Source of the DNA: Amycolatopsis sp. WQ 127309
GTDB lineage: Bacteria; Actinomycetota; Actinomycetes; Mycobacteriales; Pseudonocardiaceae
NCBI RefSeq assembly: GCF_023023025.1
Contig: NZ_CP095481.1
Location: forward strand, 682,001 to 746,000
Direction: 5' to 3'
DNA length: 64,000 nt
Shown: piece after piece, positions 6,054 through 35,103 of the stretch
Layout of the letters: every line of letters starts with the position of its first letter
Position numbering within the stretch: position 1 is the first letter of the stretch
Notes under the pieces: generated by a model
Database searches by the model: none
Told to the model about the DNA's origin: nothing
The model's input: only the letters and a program-made list of their open reading frames with translations
Made by a program: the position numbers and the translations under genes

Positions 6054-6519
6054 CCGGCTCCAGCAGGAAGACGCGGATCTCGCGGTGCTCGGCCCGCACG
6101 GCGTAGCGGTCGTACGCGGGCCAGTACTCCGCGACCGCGTCCCACATCTCCTGGCGCTCTTCCCCGGTGAGCAACCGCGCGGTGACGTCGGCCGTCCGGC
6201 CGCCGATCGCGGCGGTCGCCTTCGGGTTCGCCAGCAGGTTCGCCGACCACGCCGGGTGCGCCTCGCCGCCCCAGTTCGAGCCGATGACGACGTACCCGCC
6301 GCCGCGCTCGACGTACAACAGCGGCACCTGACGCGGCTCACCGCTGCGCCGCCCGATCGTCGTGAGCAGCAGCGTCCGCAGCCCGACCGCGGTGCCGACG
6401 CCGACCCGGCCGCCGCTGATCCGCAGCAGCACCCGGTCGGCCGGCATCAGCGCCCGCCCGACCACCGCGAACGCCTTGCTCTTCCCGAACCCCGCGAACA
6501 CACCCCGCAACCCAGCCAC
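6043..6519 (-). CDS. F420-type nitroreductase/deazaflavin oxidoreductase
   Basis: This 158-residue protein belongs to the deazaflavin (F420)-dependent nitroreductase family (Ddn/DUF385 split beta-barrel). Characteristic segments are LLLTTIGRRSGEPRQVPLLYVERGGGYVVIGSNWGGEAHPAWSANLLANP and the C-terminal YWPAYDRYAVRAEHREIRVFLLEPV. These enzymes use reduced F420 or, in some cases, flavin to reduce quinones and nitroaromatics; the natural substrate here is unknown. It starts with GTG at 6519, 7 bp after TAGGGT, which suggests a leaderless message. Presence of this family supports an F420-producing actinobacterium. Confidence 0.88.
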   Translation of the reverse strand: MAGLRGVFAGFGKSKAFAVVGRALMPADRVLLRISGGRVGVGTAVGLRTLLLTTIGRRSGEPRQVPLLYVERGGGYVVIGSNWGGEAHPAWSANLLANPKATAAIGGRTADVTARLLTGEERQEMWDAVAEYWPAYDRYAVRAEHREIRVFLLEPVSR

Positions 6520-6542
6520 CCCTCGAACCCTAGCGGGCCCGA

Positions 6543-6601
6543 AAAGCCGTGAAGGCCCCCTTCCCGGCCATAAGAGCCGGTAAGGAGGCCTTCACGGCTT
6601 T
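6543..6601. repeat. 59-bp palindromic intergenic repeat, probable terminator
   Basis: Arms of about 26 bp starting AAAGCCGTGAAGG and ending CCTTCACGGCTTT flank a short ATAAGA loop, with two mismatches. It lies just after the beta-helix glycosidase stop (6612) and before the F420-type gene start, so it could terminate the glycosidase message. Almost the same sequence reappears inside the HtrA-like gene at 34764-34883, so it belongs to an interspersed repeat family. Confidence 0.75.
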
Positions 6602-6611
6602 CGGCGGAGCG

Positions 6612-8591
6612 TCACCAGGCCGAGGGGGCGGGCGGCGGGACCACCGGCGGACGGTCGTCGCAGGTGATGGTGTTCGGGAGGAGCCACGGGGCCAGCCAGC
6701 TCGAGTTGCCGCCGAGGTCGGTCAGCGAGAACTCCGAGCCCGTCGGCGGGAAGTTGAACGAGCCGCAGTTGTTGACGCCGACCGCGCCGACGTTGCGGGC
6801 GTCGACGTCGCGGAACGACGCCGACCCGGCCGCGCGGGCGCTCAGCACCGACGTCCCGGCGCCGTCGACACGCAGGTCCGCGAACTTCAGGCCGTTGATC
6901 GAGTACAGGTCCTTCACCGGGAAGTCGCTGACCAGCATGATCGCGTTGTAGGTGTTGTCGAGGAAGTGGTCGCCGGTCACCTGGATGTCGGCGTCGATGT
7001 TCTTCTCCAGGGCGTAGAACCAGATCGCGCCGAGGCCGATCTTCCAGTTCAGCTCGAACGTCCCGGCCCGGACGGTCGTGTTGTCCGTGATCCGCACGTA
7101 CCCGGTGAACGGCTCGGCGCCGAAACGTGAGCCGACCTGGATCGCGCTGCCCTCGCGGATCGGGTCGGCGACCAGGTTGCCCACGACGGTGGTGTCGGTG
7201 CCGCCGTAGAGCGCGATCCCGTTGGCCAGCACCGGTGTCTGGACGGTGTTGTGGCTGAACGTGTTGCGCGCGTTCTCGGTCTTCTCCGACCACATCGCGA
7301 GGCCGTCGTCGCCGGTGTTGCGGACGAAGTTGCCGGACACCACCGAGTCCGTGACGCCGGTGTGGAAGTTCAGGCCGTCGGCGATCTGGTCGGCGATGAC
7401 GTTGTTCGTGATCCGCGTGTTGCTCATCGGGCCGTCGAACCACAGGCCGACCTTGGTGTGGTGCAGGTACAGACCGTCCACAGTGGAGTCGCTGAGCGCG
7501 CCGCCGATGGCGTTGATCTGGTCGGTGTCGACGCGTTCCCGGACGTCGCCGACGATCGCGAAGCCGGAGAGGTGGACGTTGTGGCTGCCGCCGGCCGCCG
7601 AATCCTTGCCGTAGAAGCCGACGCCGGTGTGCACCGAGCCGTCCGGCGCGGGGGTGTCCAGCTTGACCTCGTGCCCCTTGACGATCGTGTACCAGTTGCC
7701 GGCGCCCTCGATCGTGACGTCGTCGACGATGATGTGCCGGTTGACCTGATACGTGCCGGGCGGCAGGTAGACCTTGAGGTGCGTGCGCTTCGCGAAGGCG
7801 ATCGCGCGGTCGATCGCGTCCGCCGAGTCACGCCTGCCGGTCGGGTCGGCGCCGAAGAACAGCACGTTCGCGGCGACGAGGTCGACGCGCGGCGGCGCGA
7901 CGAGCTCGGAGTCGAGCAGGTCGACGACCGTCCACGCGGCGGGCGTCCCGGCCGGGACGGTCAGCCGGACCTTGTCCCCCGCCCGGTAGGTCTTGCCGAG
8001 CAGCAGGCGCTGTTCGTCGTAGAAGTGGTTGGGGCGGAACGGTTTCGTGACAACCGGCGGCGGGGTGGTCGCGGCGGGGACGCACGAGCACTCGGTGATC
8101 CACCAGTCCGGGTGCAGCAGGTCCGCGTCGGGGTCGTTCGTGAACGGGTACTGGTTGTACAGCCACGCGTACTGCGAGGTCAGCGTCATCGCCTGCCGGT
8201 GGCCGCCGTCGACGGTGACGTCCAGCGGCGCGGTGATCCCGCCGCCGCGCGGCGCGTCCGGGATGCTGTAGCGGACGGTGATCGCGTTGGCCGCGGCGGG
8301 CAGCGTGAACTCGACGTGCTGCCCCGCCGTGAGCTTGACGGCGCGCCGGCCGGACGCCTCGGCGGGCAGCGTGTAGGCCGAGCGGTCCGGGCCGATCACG
8401 GTGCCGTCGGTGCGGGCGTTCTCCGCCTCCTGCTCGGCGAAGCCGACGGTGGCGCCGCGCCCGGCGACCAGCGCGGGGTCGAGCGCGGCGCGCGTCACCA
8501 CGGGCCGGGCGGCGGCGGCTGACGCGGGGACGGCCACGGAAAGCAGGGTGAGGACCGCGACCAGCACGGTTCCGAAGGTGCGTCGCGCCAT
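6612..8591 (-). CDS. Secreted beta-helix glycosidase, GH87-like
   Basis: This 659-residue secreted protein has a signal peptide (MARRTFGTVLVAVLTLLSVAVPASA). An N-terminal beta-sandwich follows (about 50-230, FAEQEAENARTDG and VEFTLPAAANAITVRYSIPD, like CBM35/CBM6-type modules). Then comes a right-handed parallel beta-helix (about 240-620) with the pectate-lyase-superfamily start GADPTGRRDSADAIDRAIAFA. The segment FVRNTGDDGLAMWSEK carries an Asp-Asp pair like that of GH87 alpha-1,3-glucanases (mycodextranases), which makes that family the best guess; other beta-helix hydrolases are possible. It is followed by the palindromic repeat/terminator. An alpha-1,3-glucanase would attack fungal wall glucan and complement the chitinase nearby. 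Confidence 0.7.
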   Translation of the reverse strand: MARRTFGTVLVAVLTLLSVAVPASAAAARPVVTRAALDPALVAGRGATVGFAEQEAENARTDGTVIGPDRSAYTLPAEASGRRAVKLTAGQHVEFTLPAAANAITVRYSIPDAPRGGGITAPLDVTVDGGHRQAMTLTSQYAWLYNQYPFTNDPDADLLHPDWWITECSCVPAATTPPPVVTKPFRPNHFYDEQRLLLGKTYRAGDKVRLTVPAGTPAAWTVVDLLDSELVAPPRVDLVAANVLFFGADPTGRRDSADAIDRAIAFAKRTHLKVYLPPGTYQVNRHIIVDDVTIEGAGNWYTIVKGHEVKLDTPAPDGSVHTGVGFYGKDSAAGGSHNVHLSGFAIVGDVRERVDTDQINAIGGALSDSTVDGLYLHHTKVGLWFDGPMSNTRITNNVIADQIADGLNFHTGVTDSVVSGNFVRNTGDDGLAMWSEKTENARNTFSHNTVQTPVLANGIALYGGTDTTVVGNLVADPIREGSAIQVGSRFGAEPFTGYVRITDNTTVRAGTFELNWKIGLGAIWFYALEKNIDADIQVTGDHFLDNTYNAIMLVSDFPVKDLYSINGLKFADLRVDGAGTSVLSARAAGSASFRDVDARNVGAVGVNNCGSFNFPPTGSEFSLTDLGGNSSWLAPWLLPNTITCDDRPPVVPPPAPSAW

Positions 8592-11841: not shown

Positions 11842-11865
11842 GGGGGAACTCTACCCAGCCCGGCA

Positions 11866-11912
11866 TGACTTCACGCTTGAAGTCTGATACTTTGACTTCA
11901 AGCGTGAAGTCA
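11866..11912. promoter_or_regulatory. Twin MarR operator between marR-like and ridA-like genes
   Basis: Two 19-base arms (TGACTTCACGCTTGAAGTC and its exact reverse complement) flank a 9-bp spacer. Each arm is itself a dyad, ACTTCA-N4-TGAAGT, and the two dyad centres are 27 bp apart. This is the form expected for a MarR dimer binding two sites in a divergent promoter. The spacer TGATACTTT may hold -10 elements. Confidence 0.85.
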
Positions 11913-11926
11913 ATCGAAGGGACGAC

Positions 11927-33582: not shown

Positions 33583-35103
33583 TTAGCCGACCGGGCCTTC
33601 GACGGCCTTCACCTGAAGCTGCTGCTGCGCCCCGGACGCGTCCGACACGGTCAGCGTCAGCTGGTCGCCCGGGTGGTGGGTGTCCATCACGTTCGTCAAC
33701 GTCGTCGCCGAGTCGATCGCCTTGCCGTCGATGGCCGTGATGACGTCGCCCGCCGCGAGGCCCGCCTGCTGGGCCGGGCCGCGCGCGACGACGTCGCGGA
33801 CCTGGGCGCCGCCGCCCTGGCCGTCCGACACCGAGACGCCGATGAACGCCGTCTTGCCGATGTGGATCTTGTCGGTCGCGGTGCCGGCGACGATCTGGTG
33901 CGCGATGTCGACGGCCTGGTTGATCGGGATCGCGAAGCCCTGGCCGCCCGCGCCGCTGCGGCGGCCGTTGAGCTGGTAGCCGGTGGACGCCGCGGTGTCG
34001 ACGCCGATGACCTGCGCGTTCGCGTTGACCAGCGGGCCGCCGGAGTCGCCCGACTCGATGTCGGCCTGGACCTGGATCAGCCCGGTGAGCTGCTCGGACG
34101 ACCCGCTGGACTCGTCCGACGCGGTGATCGACTGGTCCAGCGCGGTCACCGTGCCCGGCGCCGGCACCGGGTCGCCGCCGCGGCCACCCGCGTTGCCGAG
34201 GCCGAGGATCTGGTCGCCGACCTTGACCGTCGAGGAGTCGCCGATGGCCGCCGTCGGCAGCCCGGACGCGTCTTCGAGCTGGATCACCGCGATGTCCTCG
34301 CTGCGGTCGTAGCCCACGACGTGCGCGGTGTAGGTGTCGCCGGTGCCGATGCTGGTGACCTTGATGCTGGTCGCGCCGGCGACGACGTGGTTGTTCGTCA
34401 GCACCTCGCCGTCCGGGGTCAGCACGATGCCGGTGCCCGCGGCGGCCGCGCCCTGCAGGCCCAATTCGGTGTTGACGTTGACGATCGCCGGGTTGACCTT
34501 CGCGGCCACGGCGTCGGCGTCGAGCACCGTGGCCGACGCGCTGGGCTGCCCGGAGAAGCCGAAGTCCTGGTTGCCGGACGCGGTGGGGCTGTTCGCCGAG
34601 ATCAGGTGCCCGATGCCGAGCCCGGCCACCACGGCCAGCGCCACCGCGACGACGGTGACGGTCAGCGTCCGCAGCGGATGCCGCTTGCGCGGCGGCGGCT
34701 GGTACGCGGGCGGCGGCTGGTACGCAGGTGGCGGTGGCGGATAGCCATAGCCGCCGCTTTCCTGGCCGTAAAAGCCGTGAAGGGCACCTTCACGGCCATA
34801 AGAGCCGTGAGGGGCACCTTCACGACCGTAGAAGTCCTGAGGGGCACCCTCATGGCCGTAAAAGCCCTGAGGGGCACCCTCACGGCCGTAGGGCTGCTGG
34901 GGGTAGGGCTGCGGCGGGTACGGGCGGCCCCACTGGTCACGCGGCTGCTGCTGAGGCTGGTAGTAGCCGGACTGGTAGTAGCCCTGCGAGTACTCACCCT
35001 GACCTTGGCCGTACGAATCTTGGCCGTACGAATCCTGGCCGTACGGATCCTGGCCGTGGGGGTGGTCGCCGCCGCCCTGTGGCCGTTGGTCGTACTCGCT
35101 CAT
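33583..35103 (-). CDS. HtrA-like membrane-anchored serine protease with PDZ
   Basis: This 506-residue envelope protease has a cytoplasmic Gly/Tyr/Gln/Pro-rich N-terminus (1-140) with SYGQD repeats and four 10-residue YGREGAPQGF repeats (72-111). A transmembrane helix (144-166) follows, then the trypsin-like domain (about 195-400) with triad His239 (TNNHVV), Asp270 (YDRSEDIA) and Ser354 (ESGDSGGPL), and a C-terminal PDZ domain (about 405-500). This is the actinobacterial PepD/HtrA layout used in envelope quality control. ATG 35103 follows GGGAG. The decapeptide repeats are the coding form of an interspersed DNA repeat. Confidence 0.92.
   Translation of the reverse strand: MSEYDQRPQGGGDHPHGQDPYGQDSYGQDSYGQGQGEYSQGYYQSGYYQPQQQPRDQWGRPYPPQPYPQQPYGREGAPQGFYGHEGAPQDFYGREGAPHGSYGREGALHGFYGQESGGYGYPPPPPAYQPPPAYQPPPRKRHPLRTLTVTVVAVALAVVAGLGIGHLISANSPTASGNQDFGFSGQPSASATVLDADAVAAKVNPAIVNVNTELGLQGAAAAGTGIVLTPDGEVLTNNHVVAGATSIKVTSIGTGDTYTAHVVGYDRSEDIAVIQLEDASGLPTAAIGDSSTVKVGDQILGLGNAGGRGGDPVPAPGTVTALDQSITASDESSGSSEQLTGLIQVQADIESGDSGGPLVNANAQVIGVDTAASTGYQLNGRRSGAGGQGFAIPINQAVDIAHQIVAGTATDKIHIGKTAFIGVSVSDGQGGGAQVRDVVARGPAQQAGLAAGDVITAIDGKAIDSATTLTNVMDTHHPGDQLTLTVSDASGAQQQLQVKAVEGPVG
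34764..34883. repeat. 4 x 30-bp tandem repeat inside HtrA-like gene
   Basis: Four 30-bp units (34764-34793, -34823, -34853, -34883) of the form GGCCGTAAAAGCCGTGAAGG... encode YGREGAPQGF-type decapeptides on the minus strand. Units 1-2 closely match the intergenic palindrome at 6543-6601 (shared CGGCCATAAGAGCCG centre and AAAAGCCGTGAAGG arm). A shortened fifth unit follows at 34884. Confidence 0.85.

Follow-up and report, generated by a model that had tools for sequence, protein, structure and literature searches.

The likeness between a 59-bp intergenic palindrome and the coding repeats of an HtrA-type protease gene, both in one 64-kb stretch of DNA (hereafter the window, positions 682001-746000 of the single 11,133,454-bp contig of Amycolatopsis sp. 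WQ 127309), raises the question of whether a dispersed non-coding repeat became part of a protein or whether the two sequences resemble each other through codon choice. The first-pass annotation had proposed that an interspersed repeat was fitted into the HtrA reading frame. The account that we find probable as a whole is that the palindrome belongs to a superfamily located at the 3' ends of genes, was taken up in frame by the HtrA gene, and was expanded there in steps of 30 bp. The following features of the window enter the argument:

6543..6601, no strand: 59-bp intergenic palindrome of family A (self-complementarity, fold, family profile E = 3.2e-18)
33583..35103, minus strand: HtrA-type serine protease gene (Pfam Trypsin_2 and PDZ_2, orthologue comparison)
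34771..34890, minus strand: four in-frame 30-bp units (YGREGAPQGF, YGHEGAPQDF, YGREGAPHGS, YGREGALHGF)
34771..34826: best palindrome-profile match in the HtrA gene, units 3-4, nearest family A (profile A+B E = 8e-12, A alone 1.3e-9)
34832..34887: second palindrome-profile match in the HtrA gene, units 1-2, nearest family B (A+B E = 2e-6; B alone, to 34886, 1.1e-7)

The intergenic element is the palindrome that the first-pass annotation had described. Of its 59 positions, 50 agree with the reverse complement, its arms (6543-6568 and 6576-6601, 26 nt each) are 92% complementary and separated by 7 nt, and its RNA fold of -50 kcal/mol (z = -9.3) was equalled by none of 200 shuffles. It follows the family A plan of two 21-bp half-sites flanking a 9-bp spacer, with AAA/TTT ends, and each half-site is a quasi-palindrome in its own right. 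Known RNA families gave no match at gathering scores anywhere in the 64-kb window, nor did a search of 6300-6900 that allowed E up to 0.1. Also in the window are a family C palindrome truncated by the left edge (about 1-46; G000:C1 centre 682015), with a GCC variant at the same site of G066, the closest relative compared, and a strong palindrome at about 11860-11915 (CTTCACGCTTGAAGT / ACTTCAAGCGTGAAG), which lies between divergent genes at a position conserved in G066 and looks like an operator.

A whole-genome search for further copies of the 59-bp element, suggested with the initial proposal, found many. BLAST with a 63-bp query returned 82 matches, which correspond to 40 places, each on both strands, and two weak matches (E 0.18 and 4.0) at one further place; the genome thus holds at least 40 strong places, a floor because just 40 of 162 first-look candidates were scored. 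The half-site pattern CCGTGAAGGNNNCCTTNNNGG had 136 matches on one strand and 130 on the other, against 0 for its reversed control. We distinguished families A (core CCT, CCC or ACT) and B (core GCA), which have the 21-9-21 plan in common, and collected 52 distinct intergenic copies (44 A and 8 B), leaving the HtrA locus out of the profile. A generic hairpin scan of a tile sample of 1.654 Mb of the genome (80 tiles, one of them trimmed, and the window) gave 150 hairpins, some within genes, and the sample contains further recurrent hairpin types, including C (GTGAATGCCACATCGAGGGA) and D (CCAATGTGGCGTTGGGTGCG). The GTCGTGAGTG type, named G, is frequent in G066. Within the genus, the A/B pattern is found in 57 of 80 genomes, with 0 to 273 forward matches per genome, and in a family-wide sample in 53 of 297 genomes and 14 of 46 genera. 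Outside the genus there are mostly one or few matches per genome, and large sets in a few genomes (70/65 and 80/80 in two of them).

The placement of the copies is strict. We used 61 distinct A/B copies (E up to 1e-6) from 3-kb loci retrieved by sequence searches (L002-L067, without L001 and the HtrA locus L043), with gene calls from our own codon scorer, which missed the 5' part of the HtrA gene. In every one of the 61, the distance from an edge to a stop codon is between -10 and +68 bp; 43 lie between convergent genes, 18 between tandem genes, and none between divergent genes or inside a gene. Because the first 100 bp downstream of stop codons make up about 0.29 of all intergenic bases, the result for these copies, which are not fully independent, is far from chance. 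The tile sample, which overlaps the previous one, gave 36 matches with E no higher than 1e-3, including a few weak ones to type C: 14 convergent, 16 tandem, 3 in HtrA, 2 at tile ends, and 1 at the 3' end of a gene. GC-rich stable hairpins directly downstream of stop codons are what intrinsic terminators look like, and the intergenic palindromes most likely act as bidirectional terminators or 3'-end blocks. The stem ends in GGCTTT and the T-run is short, with three or four T, so that termination is not certain.

The HtrA gene encodes a Q/Y/P-rich N-terminal segment that includes the array, a hydrophobic segment that we read by eye as a membrane helix, a trypsin-like domain, and a PDZ domain; we set its start at M(S/N)EYD, the sequence with which most orthologues begin. 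The four 30-bp units claimed in the HtrA frame are present, and the codons place them at 34771-34890, 7 bp away from the span of 34764-34883 first given. They are direct units spaced 30 bp, not a single long palindrome, and the RNA of the array forms two hairpins (units 1-2 and units 3-4; z -6.0). The arm and centre said to be common to the palindrome and the HtrA units were recovered as well: AAAAGCCGTGAAGG and CGGCCATAAGAGCCG have one exact occurrence each in 34701-34950, on the plus strand, and the other units carry degenerate versions. The profile made from the 52 intergenic copies, with the HtrA locus excluded, matches the array at E = 8e-12 in a search space of 1.654 Mb.

Each half of the palindrome is quasi-palindromic and the two recur at 30 bp, so that a copy placed in a suitable frame is translated into two decapeptides. 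In the reading frame of HtrA, one intergenic copy yields REGLLHGSYGREGGLHGF, to be compared with REGAPHGSYGREGALHGF for HtrA units 3-4. The commonest such reading of family A copies is REGLLTGSYGREGGLHGF (7 of the 104 readings of all 52 copies). The eight family B copies have 16 readings, e.g., REGHLQGHHVPEGAPHGV, which follow the pattern REGHLQG....PEGA(L/P)HG and include 2 with a stop. A B-type copy at L143:7911 reads REGHPHGSYVHEGALHD, near the REGHPHGFYGPEGAPQD of units 1-2 of the G066 array and the PEGAPHG also found in that array. A stop codon interrupts 53 of the 104 readings of the 52 copies, and therefore only some copies could enter the frame whole.

A Y/G/P-rich repeat might nevertheless come to resemble the palindrome only through its codons, and decapeptide repeats do exist in this genome without kinship to the palindrome. 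A search of the genome with the array peptide ranks an unrelated decapeptide array second (E = 1.4e-6) and puts the intergenic palindromes below it (best 2.7e-4; the window's own palindrome 0.0045). We ruled out this second array as a family member: it is an unrelated repeat in another gene, of NVQGAPSGPY type, and scores 0 to 4.8 bits with the three palindrome profiles. It is itself an in-frame 30-bp array (L251, about bases 2195-2320; G000:C1:10509195-10509320), which we read in nine genomes and whose unit number varies. The HtrA array behaves differently at the level of DNA. None of 1000 reverse translations of its peptide, drawn with the codon usage of the genome, reaches the observed score with profile A+B, A, or B, and the G066 array likewise scores above 1000 of 1000. 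Of 16,804 coding windows, 0.07% have a mean codon typicality as low as that of the HtrA array or lower (0.02% for the G066 array, scored on the codons and genes of WQ 127309), and the HtrA array uses the rare codons TTT, TCT, TAT, and CCT. Because the DNA similarity exceeds that of all reverse translations and the codon usage is extreme, we favour capture over convergence. On these sequence grounds, coding capture of the palindrome in HtrA is well supported, and the proposal that an interspersed repeat was fitted into this frame is supported. Convergence by codon choice, rejected on the reverse-translation test, is very improbable. The first-pass annotation had tied it to a genome with no other copies and to orthologues all having the same decapeptides with unrelated DNA; we found many copies and orthologues with 0 to 7 units.

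These unit numbers come from a comparison of HtrA orthologues for repeat number and presence, which had also been suggested at the outset and for which we took one genome per species. HtrA matches at E up to 1e-100 occur in 33 of 80 genomes of the genus, of which 30 loci were read. Twelve of the 13 named contigs that carry an HtrA relative come from Amycolatopsis, and the thirteenth, a Yoonia bin with 34% identity, was left out. Counted by eye in the 30 orthologues, arrays are present in two (four units in WQ 127309, seven in G066), a single similar unit in four (G008, G031, G040, and G067), and no unit in 24. This supports an uptake in or before the common ancestor of WQ 127309 and G066. In the G066 array, units 1-2 form an inverted pair that matches family B (36.3 bits), the pattern expected of a fresh capture. 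Separately, G009 has a tandem array of roughly 30-bp palindrome units (L253; G009:C1:4846359-4846469), a possible counterpart of the HtrA array.

The orthologues with a single unit bear on how the process began. Because four species have one similar decapeptide, the first step in HtrA may have been the conversion of a native unit. In its full form, this alternative holds that a native single decapeptide of YGHEGAPHGY type was later overwritten by gene conversion from intergenic palindromes and expanded, so that the palindrome was not the founder. The codons of the single unit are rare in two of the four (G008 and G031, falling within the bottom 0.9% and 1.1% of 42,926 ten-codon windows) and ordinary in the other two (18% in G040 and 31% in G067). 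With the half-unit profile, the single units of G008, G031, G040, and G067 score 0, 0, 1.4, and 0 bits, no better than their own reverse translations. On these scores the array may have had a native peptide seed; the low scores and the ordinary codons of two of the units are also points against the conversion scenario. It is equally conceivable that a scattered single unit is what remains of a decayed capture. The tree built from the catalytic region, with 9 of its 27 inner branches open, neither dates the capture nor shows the single units to be ancestral. We regard the native-unit scenario as improbable, and prefer the palindrome as the founder of the array.

The HtrA gene is not the only one to have incorporated a palindrome. 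In a GT87 glycosyltransferase gene (L129:10481-11725, minus strand), the part that encodes the C-terminal tail is an A copy. A palindrome encodes this tail in WQ 127309 and in each of eight hand-picked relatives (L284-L291), 9 of 9 species in all (16 to 18 of 18 arm pairs): an A palindrome in WQ 127309 and G066, and other palindromes in the remaining seven. Hence, the tail of the protein changes with the palindrome. Beyond HtrA and GT87, the 1.654-Mb tile sample yielded no further in-gene matches at E up to 1e-3.

Such differences are also seen between genes. At the site orthologous to 6543-6601 we read 28 loci, that of WQ 127309 included, of which 13 have a common downstream gene; the other 15 are not comparable because the downstream gene did not match (one of these, in G065, has yet another palindrome). 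The 13 comparable loci comprise the A palindrome of WQ 127309, the GTCGTGAGTG type in G066 and G031, and 10 loci without a hairpin above 14/18 arm pairs. Across about 200 kb compared with G066, there are 17 hairpins in WQ 127309 vs 24 in G066. In a shared A site (G000:C1:626987) and a shared B site (635247) the central spacer has opposite orientations in the two genomes, as a cruciform-linked inversion would give; two shared C sites have a differing C variant in G066; and five GTCGTGAGTG copies of G066 correspond to WQ 127309 sites without a hairpin.

The variants also differ in number. In non-overlapping samples, the GTCGTGAGTG type occupies 1 place in 1.762 Mb of WQ 127309 vs 9 in 0.380 Mb of G066, and type D 6 places vs 0. 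Counted on both strands, the inner triplet of type C is CCA 12 times, TCG twice, and TCA once in WQ 127309, and GCC 4 times and GCA twice in G066. In a listing of C triplets that leaves out G000, G066, and G041, it is GCA in 98 of the 100 matches listed (of 245) for G008, CCA in 45 of 45 for G025, and mixed among the five matches listed of 104 for G030. CCA is thus common to WQ 127309 and G025, and not to the closer relative G066. Overall, the palindrome variants tend to be species-typical, if not purely so, which in this sequence comparison would fit concerted evolution.

One explanation of these differences is that the intergenic elements are selfish transposons of MITE or REPIN type that prefer gene ends and have no role at the end of transcripts, a possibility that is compatible with the capture in HtrA. 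The spread of 0 to 273 matches per genome across the genus, the excess of the GTCGTGAGTG type in G066, and the relatives' sites without a palindrome would all agree with it. Yet a search of the genome for PF01797 (Y1_Tnp, RAYT-type) gave no match, while the same search was positive in 5 of 14 control genomes, and no clean target-site duplication was seen by eye in the alignments of the five gained GTCGTGAGTG copies. The strict placement at stop codons and the different palindromes found at one site between species also argue against it, and we consider purely selfish elements rather unlikely. More tentatively than for the capture itself, we suggest that the 3'-end palindromes of Amycolatopsis evolve in concert: sites would persist while their sequence is replaced or homogenised by a putative enzyme system, and the in-frame cases (the HtrA N-terminal array and the GT87 C-terminal tail) would rewrite the protein.

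The favoured history of the HtrA array can then be put together as follows. The 59-bp element is one copy of a superfamily dispersed at gene 3' ends in Amycolatopsis, whose copies, as the comparison shows, are gained or lost and swapped at their sites, with a sequence that tends to follow the species. One or two copies of mixed A/B type probably entered the HtrA frame in the low-complexity segment before the hydrophobic helix. Slippage or unequal exchange in 30-bp steps could then have led to the present four and seven units, the extra decapeptides presumably being tolerated in this segment. The locus is a readable case of a non-coding repeat becoming protein: a single genome contains coding and non-coding copies, rare codons mark the captured stretch, and the unit number varies among relatives. 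A second implication is that gene-end palindromes scattered through a bacterial genome may evolve in concert, which raises the question of what copies or converts them.

By analogy, the nearest known kinds would be REP/REPIN elements, repeated terminators, and Rickettsia palindromic elements (RPE). REP/REPIN sequences of enterobacteria and pseudomonads are short multicopy palindromes at gene 3' ends, made of two inverted hairpin halves, with a GTAG tetranucleotide at the head of the unit and a cognate RAYT transposase (Y1_Tnp). The family described here likewise consists of two inverted short hairpin units, dispersed and extragenic. It differs in its near-perfect 59-bp dyad and in a consensus that begins AAAGCCGTGAAGG, without a GTAG head, and we rejected REPIN membership because the genome has no Y1 transposase. 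The TRITs of Mycobacterium tuberculosis are repeated, near-identical intrinsic terminators; they share with our family the many near-identical hairpins downstream of genes and the actinobacterial host, whereas here there are several families per genome, different palindromes at one site between species, and a short T-run, and termination is putative. The paired uptake-sequence terminators of Neisseria and Pasteurellaceae resemble the palindromes studied here in that inverted pairs, of a sequence typical of the species, stand at gene ends; the several families per genome set ours apart. Finally, RPE are dispersed palindromes that occur both between genes and in frame within protein genes, and the same holds for the present element. 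The host is unrelated, however, and in Amycolatopsis the intergenic copies examined lie at stop codons, few captures into coding sequence occur in the sample, and the unit taken up has been expanded as decapeptides.
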